Translations under genes and position numbers: made by a program
Assembly: GCF_001425905.1 (NCBI RefSeq)
Contig: NZ_LMDY01000012.1
Location: 559,734-623,733 of the forward strand
Direction: 5' to 3'
Origin: Methylibium sp. Root1272
Lineage (GTDB): Bacteria; Pseudomonadota; Gammaproteobacteria; Burkholderiales; Burkholderiaceae_C
DNA: 64,000 bases
The notes under the pieces: generated by a model
What the model saw: only the letters and a program-made list of their open reading frames with translations
What the model was told of the DNA's origin: nothing
The model's database searches: none
In this document: positions 20,511 to 62,953 of the stretch, one piece after another
Layout: the number at the start of each line of letters is the position of its first letter
Position numbering within the stretch: position 1 is the first letter of the stretch

Positions 20511-20765
20511 TCATGAGAGAGGCCGCACGCGTTGCGCGAGCGATGGCTCTCCACATCTAGACAGGCTCGAGCTCACGTCGGCGTCTCGGTCCGACAGCAC
20601 GCCCAGCTTCAGCCACCTCACCGCCGCCTCCTCGGGAGGCATGGCCCGCCAGTGCTCATCGCACCAAAGGTCGCCGGCGGCCTCAAGCAGGTCGTCGATC
20701 GGGATCGTTGGCCACTGGTTCTGAAGGTGTGCGGCAACGCTTCGCTGCCAGTTCTGTGCGTCCAT
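20511..20765 (-). CDS. Small SOS-box-controlled protein of unknown function, copy 1
   Basis: The 84-residue protein starts MDAQNWQRSVAAHLQNQWPT and contains DDLLEAAGDLWCDEHWRAMP followed by EEAAVRWLKLGVL. ATG 20765 is preceded by GAGG and, 15 bases upstream, by a LexA-type operator (20780-20799). A second copy at 61757-61936 has the same start, the same operator position and near-identical core, and a remnant lies at 23514-23572. The copies differ at the C-terminus: this one runs 22 residues further after LGVL. No known SOS protein matches it by eye. Confidence 0.75.
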   Translation of the reverse strand: MDAQNWQRSVAAHLQNQWPTIPIDDLLEAAGDLWCDEHWRAMPPEEAAVRWLKLGVLSDRDADVSSSLSRCGEPSLAQRVRPLS

Positions 20766-20779
20766 GGTGCTGCCTCGAA

Positions 20780-20799
20780 TACTGTATGAACGTACAGTA
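20780..20799. promoter_or_regulatory. LexA (SOS) box
   Basis: TACTGTATGAACGTACAGTA contains CTGT-N8-ACAG with flanking TA on both sides, matching the LexA consensus. It lies 15 bases upstream of the start codon of the minus-strand small protein. Confidence 0.85.
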
Positions 20800-20825
20800 T
20801 TGCACTCCGAGGGGGCGCTTGTGAG

Positions 20826-20858
20826 CATGTCGACATGGCGGCTGGGTTTTCACCCAAA
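20826..20858. repeat. Conserved non-coding block upstream of an SOS box, copy 1
   Basis: CATGTCGACATG (a 12-bp palindrome) is followed by a GCTGGGTTTTCACCC hairpin. The block is about 90% identical to 61995-62027, at the same distance from the SOS box of the paralogous gene. Confidence 0.6.
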
Positions 20859-21058
20859 GTCCCTGCCGACTTGGAAGCCGCCGAACACGCCTCGGAACAC
20901 CTTCCCCACTGGGCCCGGGCTGGTGCAACGACGAGGACCGTAAGTCAGCCTCTCAGGACTGAGTAACAAGGCGCTCCGATTTGTGAGGATGCTGGACCGG
21001 CCGAGCCTCGCTGGATTAATCTTCGAGGCTGCGGGGATCGGATAGGACGGTCGAGACC

Positions 21059-21331
21059 ATGTTCACCAAACGGCGGCTCAGCACCGAGGGCTACCTGGCG
21101 CTTCAGCGCAAGTGCCAGGCGTGGGGCTTCGTCTCGGGTGTTCTCCTCGGCGTGGCCCTGACTTATGTCGCGCCGTGGATGCCCCGGCCTACCGCGCAGC
21201 TGACCACATGGCTCATCCTGGTCGCTGTGATCGGTGCGCTCTGTGCCGTCGCAGGAGCGTATCTCGCCGACATGCTGACCGACGACAGTGAACTGATTCC
21301 TCCGTCCGCACCAAGCGAAGCCGCGGATTGA
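21059..21331 (+). CDS. Small two-helix membrane protein, copy 1
   Basis: The 90-residue protein starts MFTKRRLSTEGYLALQRKCQ, then has two hydrophobic helices (about residues 24-43 and 48-68) and an acidic tail. A paralogue sits at 34370-34642 with the same start motif and length. Both copies lie within a kilobase of an SOS box. Function unknown. Confidence 0.75.
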   Translation: MFTKRRLSTEGYLALQRKCQAWGFVSGVLLGVALTYVAPWMPRPTAQLTTWLILVAVIGALCAVAGAYLADMLTDDSELIPPSAPSEAAD

Positions 21332-21411
21332 CGTGAGCCTGCGTTTCCCCCGCGCCGTCATTGGTCAGATGCATGCAGCCGCATCGGTTGCACGCCGCTG
21401 ACTCGCACCAA

Positions 21412-21702
21412 CTATCCGTTGTTGTCGATCCACTCCATGGCCGCGGTGAGACCGACCCGGGCTGCTGCCAGTCGTTCCTCAACGGGCTCCATCACAGGGG
21501 TCAGCCGGACTTCAACGACCGCACTGTCGACTGCTCGGTGCATGACGGCATAGACGGAGAAGCGACCGTCGGCCAGTGTGATCGGCGAGCAGTCGATCAT
21601 GTAGTCACCGTGGGTGAACTTGCATTCGCCGTCCAGACCGACTTCTTTGGACAAGCGCTGCAGGGTCGAGCCTGGAGACCGGGCGTAAGCAGCGACGCGC
21701 AT
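21412..21702 (-). CDS. Hypothetical protein
   Basis: The 96-residue protein starts MRVAAYARSPGSTLQRLSKE and includes CKFTHGDYMIDCSPITLADG. ATG 21702 is preceded by GAGG at a good distance. I recognise no family. It is convergent with the small membrane protein gene. Confidence 0.55.
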   Translation of the reverse strand: MRVAAYARSPGSTLQRLSKEVGLDGECKFTHGDYMIDCSPITLADGRFSVYAVMHRAVDSAVVEVRLTPVMEPVEERLAAARVGLTAAMEWIDNNG

Positions 21703-21888
21703 TTCAACCTCGACGCAGGAGTTGCCAAACGATGAAGAGCCCCACGCCCCAGATCGCAATCGTCAAGATGTCGGTCGTGGTCACGCCATGTTTTTTAGCA
21801 CTCGGACCGGCGGGTTTCAACCAAAGTTGAGTGCGAGCAGCGGGCGTGCGTATGTCTTTTTACATGCGGTGGCCCCACGACGTCGTCG

Positions 21889-22008
21889 ACACCCGGCACG
21901 GATCTCCAACGACGGCGACGGCAAGATCAAGTTCAACTGCGACGCGATGACGGCGATGGATCCGGCCGAAACGGTGGTGGTTTCTTGATCCGCGAAGAGA
22001 GGCTGTGA
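21889..22008 (+). pseudogene. Partial duplicate of the 19305-19853 gene (3' end only)
   Basis: The translation KIKFNCDAMTAMDPAETVV matches KIKFTCDAMTAMDPADTVV near the end of the 19305 gene. The frame is then broken by a short deletion after GGTGGTGGT, but the nucleotide match continues through a degraded copy of the final codons to TGA at 22006-22008. The 5' part is absent. Confidence 0.8.
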
Positions 22009-22078
22009 GCTGCTAGGTGGTTCACCGTGCCGTGCCGCCAGAACACCCCCTCTAGCCTGCAGGCTCAAACACCAAACC

Positions 22079-22723
22079 TCAAGTTGAAGCTCGCGGACCG
22101 GTCTCGCGTTGAAGCTCTGCCCCGGCCTGCTTGACGACCGAATGTGCGGCGGTCAGCGCGAGCAGCCCCATCACCGCCGCGACGGCCAGATCCGGCCAAC
22201 CGCTGCCGGTGCCGAACACGCCTAGCGCTGCGGCCATCACAGCCAGATTGCCGATCGCGTCGTTGCGGCTGCACAGCCACACCGAGCGCATGTTGGCGTC
22301 GCCCTCGCGCCAGGCATAGAGCATGGCGGCCACGGACACGTTGGCCAGTAACGCCAGGGCACCGATCACACCCATCGTCGCCGGCTCGGGCATGGTGCCG
22401 GCCGCAGCCGACCATGCGGCCCGGCCGAGCACGAACACGCCAAAGGCCCCCATCGTCAGGCCCTTGAACAAGGCCGCTCGGGCGCGCCAGGTGAGCGCCA
22501 TGCCAAGCACCAGCAGAGAGATGCCGTAGTTGGCCGCGTCGCCGAAGAAGTCCACCGAATCGGCCAGCAGCGACACGGAGCCCGACCGCAACCCGCCGGC
22601 GAGCTCGACCGCGAACATGGCGGCGTTGATGATCAAGGCGATCCAGAGCACGCGGCGGTAGCGTGGGCTCGAGTCGGCGGCGGTGGGCGCGGCACAGCCG
22701 TGGCTGCAGCAGGAATCACTCAT
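22079..22723 (-). CDS. CDF-type cation efflux protein
   Basis: The 214-residue protein begins with a Cys/His-rich MSDSCCSHGCAA metal-binding tail, followed by six predicted helices. SLLADSVDFFGDAANYGISL carries the family's Asp/His-type site, and RNDAIGNLAVM the second Asp-x3-N half. It would export Cd, Zn or Co using the proton gradient. It diverges from a CadR-like MerR regulator, and their shared gap holds a MerR-type promoter; inducibility by Cd(II)/Pb(II) is inferred. Confidence 0.9.
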   Translation of the reverse strand: MSDSCCSHGCAAPTAADSSPRYRRVLWIALIINAAMFAVELAGGLRSGSVSLLADSVDFFGDAANYGISLLVLGMALTWRARAALFKGLTMGAFGVFVLGRAAWSAAAGTMPEPATMGVIGALALLANVSVAAMLYAWREGDANMRSVWLCSRNDAIGNLAVMAAALGVFGTGSGWPDLAVAAVMGLLALTAAHSVVKQAGAELQRETGPRAST

Positions 22724-22754
22724 GTCAGGCTTCCGTGGGTCGATGCGGGCATTT

Positions 22755-22780
22755 GAGACCCTGTAGCGGCTCCAGGGTCA
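22755..22780 (-). promoter_or_regulatory. MerR-type operator/promoter for the cation exporter
   Basis: ACCCTGTAGCGGCTCCAGGGT (22758-22778) is an interrupted palindrome. On the minus strand TTGACC and TCAAAT are separated by 19 bases, the long spacer that MerR-family activators correct by DNA distortion. It lies between the divergent exporter and regulator genes. Confidence 0.8.
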
Positions 22781-22833
22781 AGCCCGTACGATGGTCCTCT
22801 GTCGACGAAGCCGGGAACGAAGGACGGGGGACC

Positions 22834-23298
22834 ATGAGGATCGGTGAACTAGCGACGGCCACGCAGACGCAGGTCGAGACCATCCGCTACTACGAGCGCG
22901 AGGGGCTGCTGCCGCAGGCGGCCCGCACGGGTGGCAACTACCGCATCTATGAAGCCGTGCATGCTGAACGCCTCGGCTTCATTCGCCATTGCCGTTCGCT
23001 CGACATGACGCTCGACGAGATCAGGGTGCTGCTGCGTTTCAAGGATGTGCCGGAGGCCGAGTGCGGCGAGGTCGATGCGCTTCTGGACGAGCACATCGGC
23101 CATGTTGTCACGCGCATCCGTGAGCTGAAGCTGTTGGAGAAGCAGTTGAGGGCATTGCGCACTCAATGCCATGGCGTTCATGACGCGAGGCATTGCGGGA
23201 TCCTGAACGGCCTGGCTGCAGGCATCTCGTCCTTGGGTGCGGCCCAGAACGGGCGGCACGTTCCAGGCCCACATCGCCGAACCGGCGGGCGTCGATAA
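22834..23298 (+). CDS. cadR: MerR-family metal-responsive regulator (CadR-like)
   Basis: The 154-residue protein has the MerR HTH MRIGELATATQTQVETIRYY followed by EREGLLPQAARTGGNYR. The effector-binding region carries the CadR/PbrR cysteines: EAECGEVDALLDEHI, RTQCHGV and RHCGILNGL. It should sense Cd(II)/Pb(II) and activate the divergent CDF exporter through the intervening long-spacer promoter. The natural C-terminus of CadR proteins is near CGILNGL, so the last 25 residues, GC-rich and unusual, may be readthrough into rearranged DNA where an SRAP remnant begins. Confidence 0.9.
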   Translation: MRIGELATATQTQVETIRYYEREGLLPQAARTGGNYRIYEAVHAERLGFIRHCRSLDMTLDEIRVLLRFKDVPEAECGEVDALLDEHIGHVVTRIRELKLLEKQLRALRTQCHGVHDARHCGILNGLAAGISSLGAAQNGRHVPGPHRRTGGRR

Positions 23299-23337
23299 GG
23301 TCGGGCGCTGCTGCGGCAGGGGTTGCTCATCCCAGGG

Positions 23338-23460
23338 CTCTGGGTCAGCGAACAGCAGGTCCATCAGTTGCGGGATCTTGCGTCGGTCCTTGAAGGAGAA
23401 GCCGGACAGCTCGGCGAACTCGGCTATCGACGTCTCGGCGCCCCAGTGCCGGACGTTCGA
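23338..23460 (-). pseudogene. Remnant of an SRAP/YedK-like gene (N-terminal part)
   Basis: The minus strand encodes RHWGAETSIAEFAELSGFSF then KDRRKIPQLMDLLFADP, matching residues 17-52 of the SRAP protein at 33185-33988 (RHWGAEMSIEEFAELYGFSF). The start codon and the whole catalytic domain are missing. Confidence 0.85.
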
Positions 23461-23513
23461 TCCACGGAACTAGCGAGTGCCGGCTCTAGCGGCCGCTAGC
23501 GTCGACGGTGGCT

Positions 23514-23572
23514 GGGCTGGCGGCCTCGAGCCGGTCATCGATTGGGGTCGTCGGCCAGCGTCGTTGGCAAAG
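23514..23572 (-). pseudogene. Remnant of the SOS-box small protein gene
   Basis: The minus strand encodes WPTTPIDDRLEAAS, aligning with WPTIPIDDLLEAAGD of the 20511 gene. Start, operator and C-terminus are missing. With the SRAP remnant immediately to the left it marks a decayed copy of the SOS module. Confidence 0.75.
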
Positions 23573-24026
23573 ACCGCGTGGACGAGGACTAAACCCTTGC
23601 GGAAGCCGTAGCAGCGCGTCGCTCTGCGACTCTGCCGAGCAGAGCGAAGTGGGACTTGTGTACGACCGTCTAGCTATCCCACCCGAGCCCGATCGTTCAA
23701 CGGTCAGATATGACAGAAATATTTCTCATATCCGATGGAAATCTGGCGTAGGCAACGGGTGTGCATCGCGCTATAAATTGCGTCAGCACAACGACGATTT
23801 TGATTCTCTCCGACCTGGTGGAAACGGCCAAGGACTCCTGCGACGGAGGGAGTCTCCGCAGGGATTTTTGAAGCCCTGTAACACTTTACAGCTGCGTGCA
23901 GCAAAGAGCGCCCGTACCCTCCGGACGTCTTGCCGATGAGGCCATGATGGCCTTTGGATGAGTTCGCCATATTCCACGTAAGTTCAACCCTGACCCCAGC
24001 AATGCAGTAGCGCTGGCTCGCTACAG
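23573..24026. other. Intergenic stretch before the signalling operon
   Basis: No supported gene. A strong hairpin followed by ATTTTT lies at 23837-23869. The AT-richer segment 23700-23780 is a possible promoter region for the downstream five-gene operon. Confidence 0.45.
23837..23869 (+). terminator. Candidate terminator or leader hairpin
   Basis: CCTGC...GGAG pairs with CTCC...GCAGG around a 5-base loop, with a 3-base bulge, and is followed by GATTTTT. With no gene directly upstream on this strand, it could be a leader hairpin of the signalling operon and not a terminator. Confidence 0.35.
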
Positions 24027-24065
24027 ATGCTGTCGACGACAGCGTGCATTGAGGAGGATGGGACG

Positions 24066-26675
24066 TTGACAGAGTCCGTGAAGATTCTGCTGGTCGAAGA
24101 CGAACCCAACGATGCCGAGCTGGTGTTGCGTCTTTTGAGGCGAGCCGGTGTCGATTGCACCGGGCTTCGGGTCGATACGGAGCACGAGTTTCGTCGGCAG
24201 CTCTCCGAGTTCCGCCCTCACGTCATCCTGTCGGATTTCAGCATGCCCCGGTTCGACGGCATGACGGCGCTCGCCATCGCCCACGAGTTGCACCCCGACA
24301 TTCCCTTTATCTTCGTGTCGGGCACGATCGGCGAGGAGCACGCCATTCGAGCGCTGAAGAACGGTGCCATCGACTACGTGCTCAAACATGACCTGGTGCG
24401 GCTGCCGCCGGCGGTCGAAAGAGCGCTTCAGGACGCCAAGTCCTCCGCCGAACAGCGGAAGATGCAGGACGCGCTGCGCCACAGCGAGTTGCGGTTCCGC
24501 CTGGCGGCATCGACGGGCGACGTCTGGGACTGGACCGTGGCCACCGGCGAAACCTACCTTTCCCATCAGTGGAAATCTCGGCTGGGGTACGAGGATGCCG
24601 AGATCGAGAACACTTCGGCCGCGTGGCAGGCTCTGCTGCACCCGGAGGACGTGAGCGGCGTCATGCAGGCGTTTCGTGATCACTTGGTCCGAAAGATGCC
24701 CTACGACGTCGAGTACCGCGCGCTGACCAGATCGGGCGACTACCGCTGGTCCCACTCGAAGGGCCAGGCGATGTGGAATGCCGAGGGCCGGGCCACCTAC
24801 ATGGCCGGGTCGATCGTCGACATCACTGAGCGCAAGCTCGCCGAGATCAGGCTTCGGCGCATGAATCGCGTGTATGCGGTCCTGAGTGGCATCAACGCCC
24901 TCATCGTTCATGCGCGGGATCGAGACGAGCTTTTTCGTGAGGCCTGCCGCATCGCGGTGAAGAGCGGCCAGTTCCTGCTGGCATGGATCGGACTGGTCGA
25001 CCGTGGTGGACATCGATTGCTGCCTGCGGCCTGCTCGGAGGGCGGCGAGGACTATGTTGGCTTGTTGCCGCTCGGCCTGGACAAGAACGCCCCGGATTCA
25101 TACGCGATCCCTGGGCGGGCGGTGGTCGAACGACAGGCCGTGATCGTCGAGGACGTCATCGAGGATTCCCGTGTCATCCTGAAGCAGGAGGCGTTGGCGC
25201 GGGGGTTCCGTTCCCTGACCATCATTCCGATCCTTGTTTCCGGCGAGGTCGTCGGCACGCTGGGCCTGTACGCCGCGGAGCCCGGGTTCTTCGACGACAA
25301 CGAGATGCAGCTCCTGCTTGGGCTGGCCGATGACATCGCCTTCGCTCTCGACCACATCGAGAAGGGCGAACGACTCAACTACCTGGCCTACTACGATGAG
25401 CTGACCGGGCTGGCGAACCGGGCGCTGTTCCACGAGCGCCTGGCGCAGTTCGTCGAAACCGCCAAGCGGGAACAGCGCAAGCTCGCGGTCCTGTCCGTCG
25501 ACATCGACCGCTTCAAGATGATCAACGACAGCCTCGGCCGTCCAGCGGGCGATGAACTGCTGCGAGAGATCGCCAGGAGATTCCTCAGTCGAGCCGCAGA
25601 GGCGGGGCGCTACGCACGGATCGAGGGCGATCACTTCGCCATCGTCATCCCTGACATCGGTTCCGAAGAGGGCCTCGCACGGGTCATCCAGCAGCGCAGC
25701 GAAGAGTATTTTGGTGTCCCTTTCAACGTCGCGGGGTCCGAACTGAGAGTCGCCGCGCGGATCGGCATTGCGATCTATCCGAATGACGGCATCGAAGGCG
25801 ATGTGCTGTTCCGCCATGCCGAAGCGGCCGTCAAGAAGGCGAAGGCTCGTGGCGAGAGATACCTCTTCTATGCACAGGAGATGACCGAGAAGATCGCCGG
25901 CACGCTCGCACTGGAGAACCGTCTGCGGCAGGCGCTCGAGAACGAGGAGTTCGTCCTCCACTACCAGCCGAAGGTGGATGCCACCACCCGGCGCATCCTC
26001 AGCGTCGAGGCGCTGATCCGATGGCAGAGTCCCGAGCTGGGGTTGGTGCCGCCGATGCAGTTCATCCCCCTCATGGAAGAGACGGGACTGATCCTGGAAG
26101 TCGGAGCCTGGGCGCTTCGCCAGGCGGTCCTGGATCACCTCCACTGGACCCAGCTGGGATTTCCGGACGTGCCGCGGATCGCCGTCAACGTGTCGCAGAT
26201 CCAGCTGCGCAAGAAGGACTTCGTCGACACCGTACGGGCCGCGATCGCGGGCGGCGCGGCGTCGCCCGGCATCGATCTGGAGATCACGGAAAGCCTGGTG
26301 ATGGAGGACATCGAGGAGAACATCGCAAAACTGAACCTCATCCGTGACATGGGGCTCAGCATCGCGATCGACGACTTCGGGACCGGGTACTCGTCGCTCC
26401 GGTATCTCGCCAAGCTGCCGGTCCAGACGCTCAAAATTGATCGCTCCTTCATCATCACGATGCTCGAGGAGCCGCACACGATGACGCTGGTCTCGACGGT
26501 CATCTCGCTGGCGCATTCGCTCGGCCTGCGGGTGGTTGCGGAAGGGGTGGATTCCGAGGACCAGGCGGCCGTGCTGAGGCGCCACGGGTGCGACGAGATG
26601 CAGGGCTACCTCTACAGCCGGCCTCGTCCACTGCGGAACATCACGGCGCTCCTGCAGCAGGGTGGAACGTTGTGA
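24066..26675 (+). CDS. REC-PAS-GAF-GGDEF-EAL cyclic-di-GMP signalling protein
   Basis: The protein has about 869 residues. Domains in order: receiver (VKILLVEDEP; phospho-acceptor in VILSDFSMPRFDG; K in YVLKHD), PAS (about 135-260), GAF (275-425), GGDEF (430-595) and EAL (605-865). The cyclase loop reads RIEGDHF in place of GGDEF, so cyclase activity is probably lost. The phosphodiesterase residues look intact: VEALIRW, DLEITES, DDFGTGYSSL and EGVDSE. It likely degrades c-di-GMP under receiver control. I chose TTG 24066, eight bases after GAGGAGG; ATG 24027 is an alternative. Its stop overlaps the TonB receptor start, and it heads a five-gene coupled operon. Confidence 0.9.
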   Translation: MTESVKILLVEDEPNDAELVLRLLRRAGVDCTGLRVDTEHEFRRQLSEFRPHVILSDFSMPRFDGMTALAIAHELHPDIPFIFVSGTIGEEHAIRALKNGAIDYVLKHDLVRLPPAVERALQDAKSSAEQRKMQDALRHSELRFRLAASTGDVWDWTVATGETYLSHQWKSRLGYEDAEIENTSAAWQALLHPEDVSGVMQAFRDHLVRKMPYDVEYRALTRSGDYRWSHSKGQAMWNAEGRATYMAGSIVDITERKLAEIRLRRMNRVYAVLSGINALIVHARDRDELFREACRIAVKSGQFLLAWIGLVDRGGHRLLPAACSEGGEDYVGLLPLGLDKNAPDSYAIPGRAVVERQAVIVEDVIEDSRVILKQEALARGFRSLTIIPILVSGEVVGTLGLYAAEPGFFDDNEMQLLLGLADDIAFALDHIEKGERLNYLAYYDELTGLANRALFHERLAQFVETAKREQRKLAVLSVDIDRFKMINDSLGRPAGDELLREIARRFLSRAAEAGRYARIEGDHFAIVIPDIGSEEGLARVIQQRSEEYFGVPFNVAGSELRVAARIGIAIYPNDGIEGDVLFRHAEAAVKKAKARGERYLFYAQEMTEKIAGTLALENRLRQALENEEFVLHYQPKVDATTRRILSVEALIRWQSPELGLVPPMQFIPLMEETGLILEVGAWALRQAVLDHLHWTQLGFPDVPRIAVNVSQIQLRKKDFVDTVRAAIAGGAASPGIDLEITESLVMEDIEENIAKLNLIRDMGLSIAIDDFGTGYSSLRYLAKLPVQTLKIDRSFIITMLEEPHTMTLVSTVISLAHSLGLRVVAEGVDSEDQAAVLRRHGCDEMQGYLYSRPRPLRNITALLQQGGTL

Positions 26676-33184: not shown

Positions 33185-33988
33185 CTACACGATGCAGCGG
33201 TCGTGCCCCGCCGCGGCCACCTCGGGCGGTGGTTCGTCCGTGATCGCCGCAAAGCTCAGCAGGTCCGGCTCGTCCTTGCTGGTCCAGCGTGACCACAGAC
33301 AGGCCACCAGCATCGGTTCCCGATCATCGGGGGTGAACTGGAGCACCACGTCCTTGCCGTCTCGGTCGACGTGCTCATAGAAGGTCTTCACGATCAGCAG
33401 CCCATGGGTGTGGCCGAACTGGCCCTTCCAGTAGCCTTCGAGGCTGTTCCTGCGGGCGTTGTAGGTGCCGGGGAACTTCTGGTCGTAGAACACCGGCTTG
33501 CCGGCCGGGCGGCACTGGTAGCGCATGGACTTGACCACGAGCTTGCCGTCCTCCGCGACGACCACTGGAGCGTAGACGCCGGGGAAGATCCGCGCGTCCC
33601 GGTCCTTGGGCTCGTGCCGTTTCAGATCCTGCAGCTTGCCCAGCATCGCATCCACCTTGTTGGAAGCGATGCGCTTGCTCTCGACGGCGGCCTTGGTCTC
33701 CTTGACCGCCAGCTTGCACTCGGCGTCTGCCAGCCGGGTGCGCTGCTTGAACAGTTCCTGCTCGTACTCGACAGTCAGCTCTGCGGCTCGCAAATCGATC
33801 AGCCGCTTGAGGTCCCGCTCGCCCTCAGTCTGCGGGTCGGTGAACAGCAGGTCCATCAGCTTCGGGATCTTGCGTCGGTCCTTGAAGGAGAAGCCGTACA
33901 GCTCGGCGAACTCCTCTATGGACATCTCGGCGCCCCAGTGTCGGACGTACTGCTTGTAGCTGTCGATGATCTGGGCCGAGTAGCACAT
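33185..33988 (-). CDS. SRAP (YedK/HMCES-like) abasic-site protein with coiled-coil insertion, C-terminally shortened copy
   Basis: The 267-residue protein begins MCYSAQ, exposing Cys2 after Met removal, the nucleophile SRAP proteins use to bind abasic DNA. Other catalytic residues are visible: Asn in TYNARRNSLEGYWKGQ, Glu in KTFYEHVDR and His in AAGHDRCIV. A charged coiled coil of about 60 residues (ERDLKRLIDLRAAELTVEYE onward) is inserted after residue 55, unlike E. coli YedK. The full-length paralogue at 62033-62953 continues QIKPENVGAWL; here CAG has become TAG and the following sequence is frameshifted, removing about 39 residues. The SRAP core is kept. Confidence 0.82.
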   Translation of the reverse strand: MCYSAQIIDSYKQYVRHWGAEMSIEEFAELYGFSFKDRRKIPKLMDLLFTDPQTEGERDLKRLIDLRAAELTVEYEQELFKQRTRLADAECKLAVKETKAAVESKRIASNKVDAMLGKLQDLKRHEPKDRDARIFPGVYAPVVVAEDGKLVVKSMRYQCRPAGKPVFYDQKFPGTYNARRNSLEGYWKGQFGHTHGLLIVKTFYEHVDRDGKDVVLQFTPDDREPMLVACLWSRWTSKDEPDLLSFAAITDEPPPEVAAAGHDRCIV

Positions 33989-34203
33989 GGCGCCATCCTA
34001 TCGCCGTGGCATTCGCAGATCGGCTGCTCCGCATGCCAGCGGTCGGACTCCACTAGGGCGACGACGGTCGGGTCCAGATGCCCGTGTGTCTGGTACAGCT
34101 TCAGGCCGCGCTGACTGAACTCACCAGCGACCTTGAAGCCGTCCGTCAGCAGCGAGTACTCGGTCGCGAAGTCCTCGGCCCATACGCTCTGCAACTTGTT
34201 CAT
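33916..34203 (-). CDS. Small protein of unknown function, SVWAE family copy 1
   Basis: The 95-residue protein starts MNKLQSVWAEDFATEYSLLT and includes QRGLKLYQTHGHLDPTVVAL. The same pattern (SAWAEMFARYYLHL, RGRLLYSAHRHLNPMTVAAA) is in the 34623-34925 protein, so they are paralogues. It lies directly upstream of the SRAP gene and overlaps it by 73 bp. The part after about residue 65 reads like out-of-frame sequence, so the true end may have been lost. No known family recognised. Confidence 0.55.
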   Translation of the reverse strand: MNKLQSVWAEDFATEYSLLTDGFKVAGEFSQRGLKLYQTHGHLDPTVVALVESDRWHAEQPICECHGDRMAPCATRPRSSTATSSTSDTGAPRCP

Positions 34204-34369: not shown

Positions 34370-34642
34370 ATGTTCACCAAGCGGCGGCTCAGCAGTGCGG
34401 GTTACCTGACTCTTCAACGGCAGTGCCAGGCCTGTGGCTTTGCCGTTGGGGCGGTGGTTGCCCTGGCGCTGACGTACTTCGCAGCTTGGATGCCTAAGCC
34501 GGCGGTTCAGTTCACGTCGTGGCTGATCTCGGTCGCGGTGGTGGGAACCATCGGATCGATCGCTGGTTGCTACTTGGCCGACTTCCTGGCCGATGATGAG
34601 ACGATGATCACTCCGCCGGTGGTCAGCGAGCCCGCAGACTGA
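34370..34642 (+). CDS. Small two-helix membrane protein, copy 2
   Basis: The 90-residue protein starts MFTKRRLSSAGYLTLQRQCQ, then has two hydrophobic helices and an acidic tail ending SEPAD. It matches the 21059-21331 protein across its whole length. It lies between the two SVWAE-family genes in the SOS locus. Function unknown. Confidence 0.75.
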   Translation: MFTKRRLSSAGYLTLQRQCQACGFAVGAVVALALTYFAAWMPKPAVQFTSWLISVAVVGTIGSIAGCYLADFLADDETMITPPVVSEPAD

Positions 34643-34925
34643 TGCGCGTCGATCTGGTCGGCGGCCGTGCGTGGGTCACCACGCCGTAGCGGCTCTCCGC
34701 AGCGGCCACGGTCATCGGATTCAGGTGACGGTGCGCCGAGTACAGCAGCCGGCCACGGGCCACCAAGTCAACCCATCGGCCAGCGCCTGCGAGGTGCAGG
34801 TAGTATCGGGCGAACATCTCGGCCCAGGCTGAGCGATCTAGGAAGTCCACCGGGCCATTCTGCAGATGGCGCAGAGCGGCGCCATCCCCAAAGGGTGTGC
34901 GACTGTGCTCGTGACCATAGAGCAT
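34623..34925 (-). CDS. Small protein of unknown function, SVWAE family copy 2, divergent from umuD
   Basis: The 100-residue protein (ATG 34925) contains SAWAEMFARYYLHLAGAGRW and RGRLLYSAHRHLNPMTVAAA, related to the 33916-34203 protein. It reads away from the SOS box at 34960-34979, which lies 35 bases upstream, so this box could control both it and umuD. Its 3' end overlaps the membrane protein gene by 20 bp. No known family recognised. Confidence 0.6.
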   Translation of the reverse strand: MLYGHEHSRTPFGDGAALRHLQNGPVDFLDRSAWAEMFARYYLHLAGAGRWVDLVARGRLLYSAHRHLNPMTVAAAESRYGVVTHARPPTRSTRISLRAR

Positions 34926-34959: not shown

Positions 34960-34979
34960 TACTGTATGTACATACAGTA
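34960..34979. promoter_or_regulatory. LexA (SOS) box, perfect palindrome
   Basis: TACTGTATGTACATACAGTA is a complete 20-base palindrome matching the LexA consensus. It sits between the divergent SVWAE-family gene and umuD and can serve both. Confidence 0.93.
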
Positions 34980-35011: not shown

Positions 35012-35386
35012 GTGCACGGCAGCGTCCAGGCCGGCTTCGCCTCACCGGCCGAGGACCACGCCGCCAAGCGCATCGACGTGCTCGAGCACCTGGTCAAGCA
35101 CCCCCAGGCCACCTTCCAGATGAAGGTGCGCGGCGAATCGATGCGCGACGCCGGCATCGCCGACGGCGACATGCTGATCGTCGACCGTGCCATCCCCCCG
35201 CGCTCCGGCCACGTCGTCGTCGCCGTCGTCGACAGCGAGTTCACCGTCAAGACCTACTGGAAGCGGGCCGGCCGGGTCAAGCTCAAGGCCGCCAACCCCA
35301 CCTATCCCGACATCGAGCCCAAGGACGGCCAGACCGTCGAAGTCTGGGGTGTCGTGGTCGCCACCATCAAGCGCATGCCCCTGTGA
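35012..35386 (+). CDS. umuD: UmuD-like translesion synthesis regulator/subunit
   Basis: The protein has about 124 residues from GTG 35012. It shows the self-cleavage Ala-Gly in QAGFASPAEDHAAKRIDVLE, the nucleophilic Ser in KVRGESMRDAGIADGDMLIV and the general-base Lys in DSEFTVKTYWKR, all as in UmuD. RecA-driven cleavage gives the active form for pol V. The N-terminal arm before Ala-Gly is only about 8 residues, shorter than in E. coli (24), so the true start may be a rarer codon upstream, such as CTG 34997. It lies 32 bp after a perfect LexA box and 15 bp before umuC. Confidence 0.88.
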   Translation: MHGSVQAGFASPAEDHAAKRIDVLEHLVKHPQATFQMKVRGESMRDAGIADGDMLIVDRAIPPRSGHVVVAVVDSEFTVKTYWKRAGRVKLKAANPTYPDIEPKDGQTVEVWGVVVATIKRMPL

Positions 35387-35401: not shown

Positions 35402-35794
35402 ATGGGCAGTCTCTACGCGCTGGTCGACGGCAACAACTTCTACGTCTCGTGCGAGCGCGTCTTCCGGCCTGACCTGGTCGGCCGCCCGGTGGTCGTGCTG
35501 TCGAACAACGACGGCTGCGCAGTGGCCCGCTCCAACGAGGCCAAGGCCCTGGGGGTGAGGATGGCCGTGCCGTGGTTCCAGATCCGCCACCTGGCCGAGT
35601 CCCACGGTCTGGTTGCCCTGTCGAGCAACTACGCCCTCTACGGCGACATGAGCGAGCGGATGATGTCCCTGGCCGCCGGCCTGGGGCCGGGCCAGGAGAT
35701 CTACAGCATCGACGAATCCTTCATCGACCTCAGCGGCGTGCGCGGCGAGTCGGTTGAAAAGATGCTCCACGCTGCATGCGGGGGCGAACTCTAG
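35402..35794 (+). pseudogene. umuC: umuC 5' fragment (DNA polymerase V subunit), truncated
   Basis: The first 117 or so residues are a good UmuC N-terminus: YALVDGNNFYVSCERVF (metal Asp), VVVLSNNDGCAVARSNEAKA and IYSIDESFIDLSGVRGE (catalytic Asp-Glu). The similarity stops at about 35755, after which 12 unrelated codons lead to a stop. UmuC normally has about 420 residues. The missing C-terminal part is found about 12.4 kb downstream (48120-48811). No functional polymerase can be made from this fragment. Confidence 0.9.
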
Positions 35795-53091: not shown

Positions 53092-53130
53092 CGCAAAGTA
53101 CAGCGAAATCAGAGATGGCGTAGCGGTTTT

Positions 53131-54521: not shown

Positions 54522-54567
54522 AAATCGAGGGTAAATACCTATCACAAGGCATTCTTCTGGCACTAAT

Positions 54568-54581
54568 CTCTGTATACAGAG
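54568..54581. promoter_or_regulatory. GntR-type operator before the Rieske oxygenase operon
   Basis: CTCTGTATACAGAG is a perfect 14-base palindrome 50 bp before the oxygenase start, sharing TGTATACAGA with the gntR site. Confidence 0.7.
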
Positions 54582-54631
54582 TTCAGTAGACAGTCTGGTG
54601 CCTGTAATTCTCCCCATTTGAAAGGTTATCC

Positions 54632-57174: not shown

Positions 57175-57191
57175 CTCATAGAGGGTTCGCT

Positions 57192-57486
57192 TGGAGGCGG
57201 ACCCCATCGCAGCGCTGGTTCGCAGCCTTGACGAGGTCCGAGACCTTGCCGCTTGAGGTCTGCAGGTTCGGGCGGATTACAGCCGAGCATCGACGCTCGA
57301 AGCCGCACTTAAAGGAGTCGACCGGCTCCTGCTGATCTCCTTCAGCGAGATCGGCCAGCATCCCGCTGTCATCGACGCCGCGCGCCGTGCTGGCGTTCAG
57401 CGTCTGGTCTACACCAGCCTGCTGCACGCAGACTCCTCGATACTGGGTCTCGCTGGTGAACACCGGGAAACCGAAGCGCTGGCGTG
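57192..57486 (+). pseudogene. Broken NmrA-like NAD(P)-binding gene
   Basis: In one frame AALVRSLDEVRDLAA is followed by an in-frame TGA, then GLQVRADYSRASTLEAALKG, VDRLLLISFSEIGQHPAVID and RRAGVQRLVYTSLLHADSSI. The N-terminal Rossmann half and C-terminus are missing. The frame ends at a stop near 57486, next to the serine recombinase gene. Confidence 0.78.
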
Positions 57487-57517
57487 AAGCTCAGGCCTGC
57501 CGTTCGCTATCCTTCGC

Positions 57518-59044
57518 TCAGGCTGCCGCAAACACTTCGACGGCCCGCTGACTCAGCGCCGCGAGGCGATCCACGAGCTGTTGCGGGGATCGATGGCGGA
57601 ACGCTTCGAGTTGCGGTGGGATCGGGTCGCTCAGCCGGTTCGGGAAGCGGACCGACAGGTCGCGGCTTGGCACTACGAAGAAGTCTTTGGCCAGGTAGAG
57701 GTCGTCCATACGCACGAGCAAGTCGAAGTCCGCGGCCCGGCAGCCCCGGTCGATGTGGATCGGCCAAACCCGGCCCCGATCACCCAACACAGGCCACAGC
57801 AACCGAGGCCGAAGCTGGTAGGCCTCGAAGCTCAGGACGTTGTAGCGCCCGCTGAACGTGACCAACAGTCTGGCCTCCCTCAGCCGTTCGGCGATCGCGA
57901 GCCCGAACGCTGCGGTGTTGGCGCGTCGCTGACGCGCGCGCTCGGCAAGCGCTTGGCCATGATCCGCATGATCGAACCCGACGACTTTCAAGCACTCGGC
58001 CCAACTGCCCATCCGATCGCGAAGCGTCTGCCGACACGGTAGGCCGTGATCGCGCAGGTCGCGGGTCGTCAGCAGCGGACTCCGTTCGAACGCTTTGTGC
58101 AGCTTTTCCTCAAGCAGTTCGCCCGCGCGCCGCTTGTCGAGTTCCAACGCAGCCCTATGTTGGATTCGCGCCCACGTCTCGTCGTCAATCAGGCGCGGAA
58201 TGCATCCGTCGCGTCGAGATGTGGAGGGGGCTATCAACCCCGGTGCGCGCTTTCTACGCCCCCACACGAAGTTCCCGATCAGTGCTTCGTTGCGAACGAG
58301 CGTGGCCAGGCTGCGAGCCGTGATCGGTCGATCCCGGTGATCACGCCAATCCTCCGAGGCCCCGATCCGAGCAACGTCCGCGAACGTCAAGCGCGTGTTC
58401 GCGTACAGGCTGCAGATCCGCTTGACGAGATCGACTTCCTCCGGCCCTGCCAGGGTCCACTCGATCCGATCGGTCGCGGCGAGTTTGCGTTGACCGATCG
58501 CGAGCGTCACTTTTCGCTGGCCATCGGCAGAGGTGGAGCACCTCCGGTAGCCGAGCGGCGGCAGGGGTCCCATCTGGAAGCCTCGTTCGACGACCGCGTG
58601 CTGTCCTGCACGCGCCTTGCCGGCGAGGTCGCGGCTGTACTCGGCGGCCATCGCGCGCTTCATGCTCTTGAGCATGGCGGAGATGGGGTTAGCTTCGGGA
58701 CCGAATATCTCGGCCACGTAGATCACCTGGACGCCGTGCAGCCGACAGTGGTACTCGTAGTAGGCGGCGGCGTCCGTGTCTTGGAAGCGCCCCCAGCGGC
58801 TCACGTCGTAGACAAGAACGGCGGAGAACGCCCTGGACCCCGTGACATCGTGAAGCAGCCGGAGCAAAGCTGGCCGGTTCTTCAAATGAACCCCGCTGCG
58901 ACCTTCGTCCTCGTAGGTCGCGACGACCTGCATCGAACGTGCGGCGGCATACGCGGCGATCGCCTCCTTCTGTATCGAGGGCGACAGATCCTGCTTGTCC
59001 GTGGACATGCGGATGTACTGGGCAGCAAAGCGTGTGTTGGTCAT
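57518..59044 (-). CDS. Second large serine recombinase
   Basis: The 508-residue protein (ATG 59044, preceded by GGAGG) has a resolvase domain with YIRMSTDKQDLSPSIQKEAI (catalytic Ser), VYDVSRWGRFQDTDA and KRAMAAEYSRDLAGKARAGQ. A recombinase domain (about 170-300; TARSLATLVRNEALIGNFVW) and a long C-terminal region follow. It is not closely similar to the recombinase at 4599. It has broken genes on both sides (NmrA and MFS remnants), which suggests it belongs to an element that inserted here. Confidence 0.92.
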   Translation of the reverse strand: MTNTRFAAQYIRMSTDKQDLSPSIQKEAIAAYAAARSMQVVATYEDEGRSGVHLKNRPALLRLLHDVTGSRAFSAVLVYDVSRWGRFQDTDAAAYYEYHCRLHGVQVIYVAEIFGPEANPISAMLKSMKRAMAAEYSRDLAGKARAGQHAVVERGFQMGPLPPLGYRRCSTSADGQRKVTLAIGQRKLAATDRIEWTLAGPEEVDLVKRICSLYANTRLTFADVARIGASEDWRDHRDRPITARSLATLVRNEALIGNFVWGRRKRAPGLIAPSTSRRDGCIPRLIDDETWARIQHRAALELDKRRAGELLEEKLHKAFERSPLLTTRDLRDHGLPCRQTLRDRMGSWAECLKVVGFDHADHGQALAERARQRRANTAAFGLAIAERLREARLLVTFSGRYNVLSFEAYQLRPRLLWPVLGDRGRVWPIHIDRGCRAADFDLLVRMDDLYLAKDFFVVPSRDLSVRFPNRLSDPIPPQLEAFRHRSPQQLVDRLAALSQRAVEVFAAA

Positions 59045-59097
59045 GGCAAAACCTCCGTTGGGAAGGCTAGCCACTGGGCGCCGAGGCACGGGGTCCG

Positions 59098-59170
59098 TCA
59101 AGGCGGCTGCCCCATCATCATCGCGACGTTCTCGTTCGTGGTGGCCCTGGTGTTCTTGCCGGAAACGAAG
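59098..59170 (+). pseudogene. Remnant of an MFS transporter gene (C-terminal part)
   Basis: One frame reads GGCPIIIATFSFVVALVFLP then ETKDR, the last transmembrane helix and LPETKDR ending typical of MFS carriers. No further transporter sequence precedes it; the recombinase promoter begins immediately to the left. Confidence 0.7.
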
Positions 59171-59174
59171 GATC

Positions 59175-59193
59175 GAGGCGGAGGATTCGAACC
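59175..59193 (-). other. tRNA 3'-end-like fragment
   Basis: On the minus strand GGTTCGAATCCTCCGCCTC resembles a T-arm followed by a 3' end. The part GGTTCGAATCC is common to almost all tRNAs, and the downstream TCCGCC is shared with the tRNA-Ser at 4277. It could be a degraded attachment site or chance. Confidence 0.25.
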
Positions 59194-59443
59194 GACTTGC
59201 CGGCGAGACTCCGGTCCCTGATACGGCACCACAACTTCCCTGTTCCGCCTCGCCAAATTCCCTGTTCTGCGCATGGCCTGTGAAGGCTCAGAACGTAGCT
59301 AAGTCCGTGGTACAGCGAGAGTTTTGGGCCGCGGGGAGGGCGGAAGTGGCCTCAGATCCTGAAAATCTTCCCGATTATCGCCGTTATGCCGGCTGAGACG
59401 GGTTCGCCGGCGACTCACAGCGCCGCCAGAAAGCTAGTAAATA

Positions 59444-59464
59444 CGGGCCTTGCGGGCCCGTTTT
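59444..59464 (+). terminator. Intrinsic terminator-like hairpin
   Basis: CGGGCC pairs with GGCCCG around a short loop and is followed by TTTT. It resembles terminators that follow tRNA genes; no complete gene precedes it on this strand. Confidence 0.55.
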
Positions 59465-59557
59465 GCTTTCTACCCACGTTTAATCCCATGCTCTGTCGGT
59501 TCTGGCGGCGCTGCGGCTGCTCGATACTCCGCAAAGTGTGTGAACTAGGAACGTGAC

Positions 59558-60346
59558 ATGGAGAAACGCGTCCAAACCACTGAGCAGTTCGAGACCTACC
59601 TTGAAGAGCAGATTGGCTTTCTTCTGGTCTCGGCCGCAGCGTTTGATGATGGTGCGACTGCTGAGGCGAAGCGACTGGCAGTCACTATCAGGACGTTGGT
59701 GCACGACAACCCACACGCTCGTCCTCCAAGCAAGTCGCTTCTCACTCTCTTGGAGCGCAAGGAATCAATGGTCTGGTGGGATACGGCTAATCCCCTTGAA
59801 GACGGCGCACATCAGCCGAACGGCGGGCTTATCGCCTACGACATGTTTCGAACGCCGCCTAGATATTTGGCTTGCCTCGACAACACGCCTACAAAACGCC
59901 AAGTTGGTTTCGATGAATGGTGGAACGCTGAAGTTTTCAAAAATCCGAACGGCCATTCCCTGCCGCGAAAAAATCTGATCCTGTACGCGGCTAACAAAAC
60001 TGGGGGGGCACACGTCGATCCGGAGTTGCCTGAGGCTTACGCCGCATTGGCGGTTGACAACTCCCCAGGCCTCAAGCCCAGCGACCCAAGTGTGATCATC
60101 ACTGAACCAGGTCTAGTTGCGATTCGTCAGGTTGCACACGAGGTGCTGAAGTCGCTTAAGCCAGGATATGCCAAGGTTCCCGACTACACCGGCTCGGGTC
60201 CGATCCAATTTGTGACGATCACGCCGATGGGAAACGGCCCTCAGGCCATGCCGGCAACCGTGCCCAAGGTAGGGCCCAACGATCCTTGCCCATGCAACAG
60301 CGGCAAGAAATACAAGCAGTGTCACGGCCACTGGTCAGCCAGATAG
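59558..60346 (+). CDS. Hypothetical protein with C-terminal SEC-C zinc motif
   Basis: The 262-residue protein ends with a SEC-C motif, [18 protein letters not shown] (C-x-C, then C-H), which binds zinc and often mediates contact with ribosomal or protein partners. The N-terminal 220 residues match no family I recognise. It is free-standing, with ATG at 59558. Confidence 0.75.
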
Positions 60347-60437
60347 GCAACGTCTTCACCGCCCCGTCACCAGCCCCTGTGCAGCGTCACCCCGTCCCGC
60401 TCGTCATCAGCCAGATGCCCCGGCGGCCGGATCAGCG

Positions 60438-60752
60438 TCAGTTGCAGCGGTAGGCCTTCCCAACCACAGAGGTGCTGCCGTAGGTCAGCGACGGCGCGCT
60501 CCACACCACATGCGTCGCGCCGGCAGCCTGAGCGCGATTGAGCAGCTCACCGCGGGCGTTTTCGACCCCGCGCGTTGCGAACAAGCCATACCAGCCTGAT
60601 GTGCCCACGACATCGTCGATGTAGGCGCAGCCAGTCACTGCGTCAGCCGTTGTCACTTTGACGGCGCCTTTGCTTGGCGGCGCGCCGTCGGTAGCGCAGC
60701 CGCCCGAAGTCAATACAGCTGCGGCTAGAAGCAGTGATGGGCCGGTGTTCAT
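60438..60752 (-). CDS. Small lipoprotein (DUF4156-like)
   Basis: The 104-residue protein has a lipobox (LLLAAAVLTSGGCATDGA) and a DUF4156-like domain: GCAYIDDVVGTSGWYGLFAT and ELLNRAQAAGATHVVW, ending GKAYRCN. It is a predicted outer-membrane lipoprotein of unknown function. It forms a tandem with the lipoprotein gene upstream (60790-61365). Confidence 0.8.
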   Translation of the reverse strand: MNTGPSLLLAAAVLTSGGCATDGAPPSKGAVKVTTADAVTGCAYIDDVVGTSGWYGLFATRGVENARGELLNRAQAAGATHVVWSAPSLTYGSTSVVGKAYRCN

Positions 60753-60789
60753 ATCTACCGAACTTCAGCGACGCTAGTCACATATCGAG

Positions 60790-61365
60790 CTATCGAAGAG
60801 TTCTGCAGTTGCCGAACTCGCAACGCACCATGAGAGCGTCTCCGTTGCTGCACGAAACCGAGTAGGCCTCGAAGCCTGGGCCCTTTCCGGTCAAGACAGG
60901 AGACGGATCCGTGTGGCATGAGAGATCGCGCGCCATTCGTTGCACTTGATATGACTCTTGCCCTGTAGGGGCCGCAACTGGTTTAGCGGCCGGGGCTTGG
61001 GCAACAGGCGCCGCGCCATTCGCTGTAGGGGCGTCAGCCACAGTCCCGCATCGTCGAACTGCACGCGCGTCTTGGAGTTGAGCTAAGCGCTTGTTTGCGC
61101 TCTCGGTGGCGCTTGATTTTTCGAGCACGTTGCCGACGCCGAAGTCCCCCAGGAATGAGAGCACTGACCGCCCGTCGAACTGACTTTCCTGCTCAACTCG
61201 GGACAGAAAACCATGAACTTTGGCGGTCTCCAGCTCCAACTCGCGGCACGTCATCGTGTTCTTTTCAAAGTCAGTCACGTCACCCTGCCGACCATAGTTC
61301 TTCGTCGCACAGCCCGACAAGACAATGACAAGGGCAAGCAGTGCTGCGGTCCGGATTCCGTACAT
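60790..61365 (-). CDS. Hypothetical lipoprotein
   Basis: The 191-residue protein has a signal peptide and lipobox (LLALVIVLSGCATKNYG), a helical region with a conserved-looking Cys in KNTMTCRELELETAKV, an Ala/Pro-rich linker (TANGAAPVAQAPAAKPVAAP) and a C-terminal part with three Cys (YSVSCSNGDALMVRCEFGNC). I recognise no family. Confidence 0.7.
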   Translation of the reverse strand: MYGIRTAALLALVIVLSGCATKNYGRQGDVTDFEKNTMTCRELELETAKVHGFLSRVEQESQFDGRSVLSFLGDFGVGNVLEKSSATESANKRLAQLQDARAVRRCGTVADAPTANGAAPVAQAPAAKPVAAPTGQESYQVQRMARDLSCHTDPSPVLTGKGPGFEAYSVSCSNGDALMVRCEFGNCRTLR

Positions 61366-61461
61366 GTTCGCTTCCTAGTTTTGGAACACGCACTGTGCCA
61401 TCGCTTTAGTCACCGCGCACGACAGAGTTCGTGGCGCGCGCAAATGGATCAAGCGTTGGCA

Positions 61462-61755
61462 TTAGCGATGTCGCCGGTTCGGCTTCCCAAACGGATTCAC
61501 CGGCTCGGTGAACTGCGGCGGGGAGGGCGGTGGGTGCGCCAAGTGTCCCGAGTGGAAGGCCGGCGGGGCTTGATCGAGCACCGGCAGCGGCCCAGGGTGG
61601 TGGTACATCACTCGGCAATCGGAGCACTTCGCGAACTCGGTCTCGTACAAGATGCCGTTGCGCTTCTTGACCGTGACTCGCGAGCACCTGGTGGACTCGC
61701 AGGCGGCGCACTTGAACCTGTAGCTGCCGTCTACTGCCTCGAACGTCGCTGGCAT
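61462..61755 (-). CDS. Small zinc-ribbon-like protein in the third SOS locus
   Basis: The 97-residue protein contains FKCAACESTRC and FAKCSDCRVMYHH, four or five Cys in two C-x2-C pairs of the zinc-ribbon type, and a proline-rich tail. It begins directly after the SOS-box small protein gene (stop at 61757), so it is probably the second gene of that SOS transcript. No known family recognised. Confidence 0.65.
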   Translation of the reverse strand: MPATFEAVDGSYRFKCAACESTRCSRVTVKKRNGILYETEFAKCSDCRVMYHHPGPLPVLDQAPPAFHSGHLAHPPPSPPQFTEPVNPFGKPNRRHR

Positions 61756-61756
61756 C

Positions 61757-61936
61757 TCAGTCAGCCAGCACGCCCAGCTTCAGCCATCGCACCGCAGCTT
61801 CCTCGGGCGACATGGCCCGCCAGTGCTCATCGCACCAGAGGTCGCCGGCCGCGTCGAGCAGCTCGTCGATCGGGATCGTCGGCCATTGGTTTTGCAGGCG
61901 CGCGGCGACGCCACGCTGCCATTCCTGTGCGTCCAT
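61757..61936 (-). CDS. Small SOS-box-controlled protein of unknown function, copy 2
   Basis: The 59-residue protein (ATG 61936) starts MDAQEWQRGVAARLQNQWPT and contains DELLDAAGDLWCDEHWRAMS then EEAAVRWLKLGVLAD. It matches the 20511 protein (MDAQNWQRSVAAHLQNQWPT) but ends right after LGVL. A LexA box lies 14 bases upstream. It is followed by a zinc-ribbon-like gene and preceded by a full-length SRAP gene. Confidence 0.78.
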   Translation of the reverse strand: MDAQEWQRGVAARLQNQWPTIPIDELLDAAGDLWCDEHWRAMSPEEAAVRWLKLGVLAD

Positions 61937-61950
61937 GATGCTGCCCCAAA

Positions 61951-61970
61951 CACTGTATGAACATACAGTA
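61951..61970. promoter_or_regulatory. LexA (SOS) box
   Basis: CACTGTATGAACATACAGTA has CTGT-N8-ACAG and differs from the ideal palindrome at two positions. It is 14 bases upstream of the small protein gene's ATG. Confidence 0.85.
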
Positions 61971-61994
61971 TTGCACTTCATCGGACGCTTGCGG

Positions 61995-62027
61995 ACATGT
62001 CGACACGGCCGCTGGGTTTTCACCCTA
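61995..62027. repeat. Conserved non-coding block upstream of an SOS box, copy 2
   Basis: CATGTCGACACGG is followed by GCTGGGTTTTCACCC. It matches 20826-20858 at about 90% identity and sits between the SRAP stop and the SOS box, where a GGGT-GAAA-ACCC hairpin could also end the SRAP transcript. Confidence 0.6.
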
Positions 62028-62032
62028 AAGAC

Positions 62033-62953
62033 TCACGCGGCTAGGCGGTGCTCGTAGTAGGGCCGCGGTCGGTCATCGAGGATCGCGTAGCTGGCCGCCA
62101 GATTCCTCGGGTCAGGATTGAGCCAGGCCCCGACGTTCTCGGGCTTGATCTGCACGATGCAGCGGTCATGCCCTGCAGCTGCCACCTCGGGCGGTGGGTC
62201 GTCGGTGATGGCGGCGAAGCTCAGCAACTCCGGTTCGTCCTTCCCGGTCCAGCGTGACCACAGGCAGGCCACCAGCATCGGCTCTCGATCGTCGGGGGTG
62301 AACTGCAGCACCACGTTCTTGCCGTCGCGGTCGACGTTCTCGTAGAAGGTCTTGACGATCATGAGCCCGTGGGTGTGGCCGAACTGGCCTTTCCAGAAGC
62401 CTTCGAGGTTGTCCCTGCGGGCGTTGTACGTGCCGGGATACTTGATGTCGTAGAACGCCGGCTTGCCGGCTGGGCGGCACTGGTAGCGCATCGGCTTCAC
62501 CACGAGCTTGCCGCCTTCGCTGACGATCACCGGGGCGTAGACGCCGGGGAAGATCCGCGCATCGCGATCCTTGGGCTCGGTGCGGCGCAGGTCATCGAGC
62601 TTGCGCTTCAGTGCCTCGACCTTGTCCGTTGCAATGCGCCTGCTCTCGGCGGCGGCCTTGGTCTCCTTGACCGCGAGCTTGCGTTCGGCGTCTGCCAGCC
62701 GGGTGCGCTGCTTGAACAGCTCTTGCTCGTACTCGGTGGCCAGCTCGGCGTTGCGCCGGTCGATCAGTGTCTTGATGGCCCGCTCGTCGTCGGTCTGAGG
62801 ATCGATGAACAGCTGGTCGATCATCTTGGGGACCTTGCGTCTATCGCTGAACGCAGGCCCATACAAATCCTTGAACTCCTCCAGCGAGATGAAGGCACCC
62901 CAGCGGCGGCAGTGCTGACGGTAGGCGTCTACGAGCTGGGCAGAGAAGCACAT
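62033..62953 (-). CDS. SRAP (YedK/HMCES-like) abasic-site protein with coiled-coil insertion, full length
   Basis: The 306-residue protein begins MCFSAQ (Cys2 nucleophile). Other SRAP residues are Asn in TYNARRDNLEGFWKGQFGHT, Glu in KTFYENVDR and His in AAGHDRCIVQI. A charged helical insertion (about residues 55-115, starting TDDERAIKTLIDRRNAELAT) separates the N-terminal strand from the core. SRAP proteins trap abasic sites on single-stranded DNA to prevent breaks during replication. It is the intact version of the 33185 gene and the 23338 remnant. Its own promoter shows no SOS box, but one follows just downstream. Confidence 0.9.
   Translation of the reverse strand: MCFSAQLVDAYRQHCRRWGAFISLEEFKDLYGPAFSDRRKVPKMIDQLFIDPQTDDERAIKTLIDRRNAELATEYEQELFKQRTRLADAERKLAVKETKAAAESRRIATDKVEALKRKLDDLRRTEPKDRDARIFPGVYAPVIVSEGGKLVVKPMRYQCRPAGKPAFYDIKYPGTYNARRDNLEGFWKGQFGHTHGLMIVKTFYENVDRDGKNVVLQFTPDDREPMLVACLWSRWTGKDEPELLSFAAITDDPPPEVAAAGHDRCIVQIKPENVGAWLNPDPRNLAASYAILDDRPRPYYEHRLAA

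Follow-up and report, generated by a model that had tools for sequence, protein, structure and literature searches.

SulA, DinI and TisB are small effectors of the SOS response, short proteins encoded behind a LexA box. SRAP proteins form the family of YedK and HMCES and cross-link to abasic sites in single-stranded DNA. SRAP genes are described in clusters with UmuDC, ImuAB-DnaE2 and DinB and, in Ku contexts, zinc-ribbon-like proteins (PMC3765255). Prophages provide a further class of small damage-inducible proteins: the Gifsy antirepressors GfoA and GfhA are under LexA control and encoded outside the immunity region (PMC3121763), and Tum of phage 186, work on which is cited in PMC10432266, is a further LexA-controlled antirepressor. 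Here, we analyse a stretch of 64,000 nucleotides from Methylibium sp. Root1272 (contig NZ_LMDY01000012.1, positions 559,734 to 623,733; hereafter the window), which comes from a genome of 4.2 Mb in 19 contigs and carries several copies of MDAQ, a protein family of about 60 residues. On balance, and with moderate confidence, we favour the reading that MDAQ is a LexA-repressed SOS mini-protein, an accessory of prophages that often travels with SRAP and also resides in chromosomes.

The predicted LexA box carries this reading. A box of the pattern CTG[GT]N8[AC]CAG, sought within about 80 bp upstream, precedes both window copies of MDAQ, 27 of 33 further genomic copies and all 28 viral copies, 8-62 bp upstream of the conserved region; none of 25 distant relatives has one in the same span (Fisher test, 5e-11). 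One plasmid copy is boxed as well. These unboxed relatives are the best available control; of 12,200 stretches of 92 bp drawn at random from these loci (true boxes included), 3% match the loose pattern and 1.4% the strict pattern CTGTN8ACAG. Core and distant members were split by E-value, and three border loci (L183, L184 and L187) were assigned to the core once their boxes were known; moving them to the distant set leaves 25 of 30 boxed versus 2 of 28 (2e-9). The genomic set excludes the window's own copies (L022, L049), and the distant set excludes L165/L170 (one locus, no box), L195 (apparently spurious, no box) and L196 (no hit). L123 and the second copy in L118, both without a box, are uncounted, and the truncated plasmid copies L058 and L060 (no box) are excluded. 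In its predicted box shortly upstream, MDAQ looks like a member of a LexA (SOS) regulon.

Within the window the sequence-only reading had placed a LexA box at each of three loci (A, B and C), and this holds: all three have CTGTN8ACAG with matching flanks and are predicted sites. The generic core ACTGTN8ACAGT occurs at five sites in the whole genome (reversed control, 1), three of which are these boxes, at 20782, 34962 and 61953; another precedes, by about 0.7 kb, an IMS-domain gene resembling imuB, and the remaining fifth looks like noise. An extra CTGTN8ACAG at 23876 has poor flanks, and relaxing the pattern to allow one mismatch gives no excess (11 found, 9.1 expected from shuffles). Beside MDAQ at ten loci (L059, L081, L082, L085, L086, L087, L089, L091, L122 and L125) stands a recurrent gene family of its own; seven of its eight listed placements are divergent, 41-52 bp from the MDAQ core, so that this neighbour may share the LexA box.

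MDAQ is under purifying selection. The two window copies are 88% identical with a ratio of non-synonymous to synonymous substitution rates (dN/dS) of 0.11, and 139 prophage pairs have a median of 0.17. Five residues are invariant in the alignment (W6, L14, W18, A47 and W51), and the protein is probably a compact helical one with conserved tryptophans. NCBIfam gave no match to the two window copies and the PDB none to MDAQ; PHROGs yielded nothing convincing (best E 0.025), and neither did Pfam with 29 members (four families, one member each, best E 0.0018). MDAQ resembles SulA, DinI and TisB in being a short protein behind a LexA box and differs from them in lacking sequence similarity to anything in the libraries scanned. 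No description of an MDAQ-like mini-protein was found in the titles and abstract beginnings of the open-access literature, where sequence is not searchable, which is weak evidence of novelty.

A single-protein query finds MDAQ in 27 of 299 genomes of the bacterial family, and a profile of 29 sequences in 41, many of the weaker matches being distant, unboxed relatives. In some genomes the profile matches as many as five or six times, mostly in distant, unboxed relatives (L164, L166-L194 and L197); these relatives make up a multi-copy superfamily of small proteins. An order-wide search returned 1 of 300 genomes, the source genome, with at most 20 candidates scored per genome, so copies may be missed. 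In IMG/VR, a seven-sequence sub-alignment found MDAQ on 28 viral contigs (26 distinct proteins); it represents one branch, and the viral sample is uneven. Two queries of GenBank phages gave no match. The closest relatives of SRAP and MDAQ with named hosts are from Burkholderiales, with Variovorax at the top by identity.

The second recurrent feature is SRAP. Both window SRAPs exceed the PF02586 cut-off of 27.1 (51.6 and 68.8 bits), and they are 78% identical with a dN/dS of 0.27. Cys2 and AGH can be read by eye, and NAR and YE align with 1zn6, whose His position is not conserved; we take Cys2, Asn, Glu and His to be the catalytic residues. SRAP_B, terminated by TAG, ends just past AGHDRC. The window proteins differ from the described family in a long-form insertion before the core and in their neighbour, which recurrently is the MDAQ mini-protein, not a polymerase. 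SRAP lies within 1 kb of MDAQ at 10 of 28 genomic loci versus 0 of 25 loci of distant relatives (p 8e-4). On viral contigs it lies within 1.5 kb in 16 of 28 cases, and in 14 of these it is encoded downstream of MDAQ in the same orientation; of the 12 viral loci without SRAP, three have a contig end within 260 bp of MDAQ. The expectation that the families recur together near LexA boxes in other genomes is borne out for MDAQ as regards the box, in part for SRAP, and not for the two other small families of the window, TKRR and SVWAE.

The repeated place beside SRAP points to the handling of damaged single-stranded DNA, and MDAQ may work in the same process as SRAP, for instance by acting on damaged forks in the role of adaptor or modulator; we hold such a partnership to be tentative, our estimate being lowered because the SRAP-centred loci scanned show no MDAQ. 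Slightly less likely still is the more specific proposal that MDAQ forms the LexA-controlled branch of a superfamily of small proteins not described so far, with many unboxed relatives in the same bacterial family, that box, MDAQ and SRAP form a mobile cassette of phages, plasmids and chromosomes, and that MDAQ steers SRAP to damaged single-stranded DNA. The copies that lack a neighbouring SRAP suggest a different target, perhaps in the host. MDAQ could be an SOS effector acting on the host cell, restraining division or RecA in the manner of SulA or DinI, with SRAP as a mere frequent neighbour on mobile DNA. Its small size would suit this role, as would the SRAP loci free of MDAQ and the boxed copies without a nearby SRAP, several amid ordinary chromosomal genes and one on a plasmid with no SRAP in the 10 kb examined. 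Against a host effector, the distant relatives have no SRAP nearby, the arrangement of MDAQ and SRAP on viral contigs often resembles an operon, and MDAQ matches no known effector in the libraries scanned; we regard this alternative as a real possibility, if well short of probable.

Of the 28 viral copies of MDAQ, 25 stand no more than 5 kb from the end of a contig (7.2 expected), contig ends not being proven prophage ends. Their scanned neighbours include integrases of the tyrosine and serine types, endolysin and tail proteins. Around genomic loci, the scans covered 78 of 82 and 128 of 141 chosen open reading frames (ORFs), namely the longest ones rich in G+C at third codon positions (GC3). 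Among the 78 neighbours at loci with SRAP, portal proteins, endolysin and integrase are matched by single members (among the first 25 of 83 families). Matches among the 128 neighbours at loci without SRAP within 2.5 kb are mixed: ordinary chromosomal families such as enoyl-CoA hydratase, dihydrouridine synthase and LysR, and also transposases, two more distant SRAPs and phage-type proteins (among the first 25 of 139 and 25 of 153 families). One SRAP-less locus (L125) has a counterpart in a viral contig (L091) that carries phage tail genes; several, not all, of the SRAP-less copies look chromosomal. At five loci, three of which also have SRAP within 1.5 kb, a small protein follows MDAQ by 8-16 bp on the same strand; only one of these was scanned, and it hits a PHROG with the label "moron, membrane protein". 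Judged by viral carriage and patchy distribution (28 viral contigs; 41 of 299 genomes), MDAQ looks like a moron. It resembles prophage morons in its position near viral contig ends, its patchiness and its moron-like downstream neighbour, and differs from them in being LexA-boxed and in occurring outside prophages as well.

Carriage by prophages also raises the possibility that MDAQ is a LexA-controlled antirepressor of the Gifsy kind, which upon SOS would bind the phage repressor and induce the prophage. Like GfoA and GfhA it is small, LexA-boxed and present on viral contigs, apparently outside the immunity region: in most records that place both, it lies tens of kb from the gene for an S24-type repressor-like protein, and there is precedent in the Gifsy phages (PMC3121763). 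Such a role is less likely because 12 of the 28 carrier records encode an S24-peptidase protein of repressor length (open frame 237-358 residues), a self-cleaving kind, and closely similar MDAQ proteins (85-93% identity to the query) occur in records with and without one; absence is a weak signal here, the records possibly being fragments. All four of the S24 proteins scanned match S24, and two match HTH_3, one of these below the Pfam cut-off. MDAQ also differs from the antirepressors in occurring in plasmids and chromosomes, away from phage genes. Altogether, an antirepressor seems unlikely.

In the reading that we favour, a LexA-repressed mini-protein often accompanied by SRAP, LexA would repress MDAQ through the upstream box, and RecA-triggered cleavage of LexA would allow its expression. 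In prophages MDAQ, often followed by SRAP, would form an accessory, moron-like unit near the prophage ends, with other copies in plasmids and chromosomes. Repression by LexA, relieved by RecA, is the step that the predicted boxes support; we infer actual induction of MDAQ from them. The sequences show a box limited to the MDAQ subfamily, frequent proximity to SRAP, purifying selection and carriage on viral contigs.

Several observations, beside the status of contig ends, weigh against this reading. With the strict pattern only 18 of 33 genomic and 20 of 28 viral copies are boxed. SRAP is missing within 1.5 kb of MDAQ at 17 of 28 genomic loci. Conversely, the MDAQ profile found no copy in the stretch covered around a Variovorax long-form SRAP (L004) and eight viral ones (L061-L068), nine of nine. 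Some long SRAPs appear to have a LexA box of their own (about 63 bp before SRAP in L004 and about 75 bp in L063); neither window SRAP has one, and SRAP_C reads toward box C and is not behind it. Among plasmids, long-form SRAP is found in 104 records versus 3 with MDAQ, so that common carriage on mobile DNA may account for some of the linkage. Four plasmid SRAP regions inspected have mixed contexts, one SRAP standing directly after an error-prone DNA polymerase.

Table. Features of the MDAQ, SRAP and associated loci in the window
Feature	Position	Strand	Remarks
MDAQ_A	20511..20765	-	84 aa; conserved part 20589-20765; C-terminal tail absent from copy C
LexA box A	20782-20797		16 bp before MDAQ_A start; TKRR_A start about 260 bp off, on the opposite side
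TKRR_A (MFTKRRLS)	21059..21331	+	90 aa
Locus D SRAP N-terminal remnant	23342..23456	-	115 bp, 91% identical to SRAP_B DNA
Locus D MDAQ remnant	23516..23557	-	42 bp, 81-83% identical (83% to MDAQ_A)
SRAP_B (PF02586)	33185..33988	-	267 aa; lacks the last 39 residues of SRAP_C
SV1 (SVWAE family)	33916..34203	-	frame overlaps SRAP_B start
TKRR_B	34370..34642	+	90 aa; own start without LexA box
SV2 (SVWAE family)	34623..34925	-	begins about 36 bp away from box B
LexA box B	34962-34977		between SV2 and umuD
umuD	35012..35386	+	GTG start, 124-125 aa, very short N-terminus
umuC fragment	35402..35794	+	130 aa; IMS positions 1-108 of 148
CxxC..CxxC small protein	61462..61755	-	directly downstream of MDAQ_C
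MDAQ_C	61757..61936	-	59 aa
LexA box C	61953-61968		16 bp before MDAQ_C start; about 65 bp past SRAP_C stop
SRAP_C (PF02586)	62033..62953	-	306 aa, long form; inserted stretch before core (coiled, by eye)

The window itself holds several copies that are duplicated and in part decayed, in surroundings with much mobile DNA (Table). Locus A has MDAQ and TKRR; locus B has SRAP, TKRR, two SVWAE proteins, umuD and a umuC fragment; locus C has MDAQ and SRAP. A fourth, D, where the sequence-only reading had noted remnants of two of the families, has only scraps of SRAP and MDAQ. Duplicated DNA joins A and C (227 bp and 46 bp spanning MDAQ and box, 85-86% identity), SRAP_B and SRAP_C (300 bp, 89%), and D and B (132 bp, 86%). 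An 87-bp direct repeat (91%; 19736-19822 and 21892-21978) flanks locus A and carries the end of a gene of unassigned function, and a cation efflux protein (22082-22723, minus strand) adjoins locus D beside a MerR-type regulator recognized by eye.

From this arrangement the sequence-only reading had proposed a candidate damage-response module of MDAQ, TKRR, SVWAE and SRAP together with umuDC. Its shared paralogues are real (MDAQ in A and C, TKRR in A and B at 59% identity, SRAP in B and C), so that the families are common pairwise to three boxed loci; TKRR is under purifying selection (dN/dS 0.17), and one box is flanked by SV2 and umuD. SRAP, MDAQ and TKRR do not, however, recur at every locus: SRAP is missing at A, MDAQ at B and TKRR at C, and all families occur together at no locus. 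The start of TKRR_B has no box, and SRAP_B and umuC are truncated. TKRR was found in 1 of 299 family genomes, the source genome, with no match among plasmids and viral contigs; SVWAE gave, across the same 299, the source genome and two marginal matches (E 6e-4 and 9e-4). We consider the four-family module very improbable and reject it on this distribution. What survives of the proposal is a narrower candidate unit, a LexA box with MDAQ and often SRAP.

The link to umuD and umuC likewise dissolves into a decayed remnant. The source genome holds no second match to the 130-residue umuC piece, and a working DNA polymerase V (UmuDC) at locus B is rejected on these grounds. Read from its GTG, umuD has only a few residues before what we take to be the usual cleavage site, and its product may therefore be UmuD'-like. 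With its shortened SRAP_B, fragmentary umuC and short umuD N-terminus, locus B is, by its sequence, decayed.

TKRR and SVWAE look like lineage-specific small families. TKRR is probably a small membrane protein, because stretches of hydropathy above 1.6 occur once in TKRR_A and twice in TKRR_B. The two SVWAE proteins claimed at 33-36 kb are both present, and weakly alike only (41% over 49 residues). Some 1.3 kb beyond the end of the window is a third copy, SV3, whose matching part contains a stop; the open part of SV2 and SV3 has a dN/dS of 0.39. Beside SV3 starts a prophage remnant (L126:6012-16931, about 65.3-76.2 kb in window numbering), which includes a tyrosine integrase, about 9 kb onward, and a tape-measure-like protein recognized by eye (no Pfam hit). 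The small CxxC..CxxC protein after MDAQ_C, overlooked by the first reading, has a relative directly after MDAQ in another genome of the genus (G003); its conservation is doubtful, because its dN/dS is 0.81.

Large serine recombinases (Resolvase and Recombinase domains) are encoded at 4599-6215 and 57518-59101 (minus strand), the second about 2.4 kb from locus C. GTTAGAC/GTTAGGC sites at 63297-63700 and at about 5515-5530 of L126 surround small ORFs, one of which ends in NPSFKRTPDGAA, and we take them to resemble gene-cassette (attC) borders. The idea that a chromosomal integron frames the window was rejected, GTTRRRY sites showing no enrichment (69 versus 71 expected).

Small SOS proteins are easily overlooked; an annotated Variovorax plasmid, in which no gene is marked at the boxed MDAQ copy, is an example. 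A recurrent LexA-boxed mini-protein often beside SRAP would be a candidate SRAP partner, and MDAQ together with SRAP would offer a handle on why prophages carry abasic-site protection, possibly switched on with the SOS response of the host.

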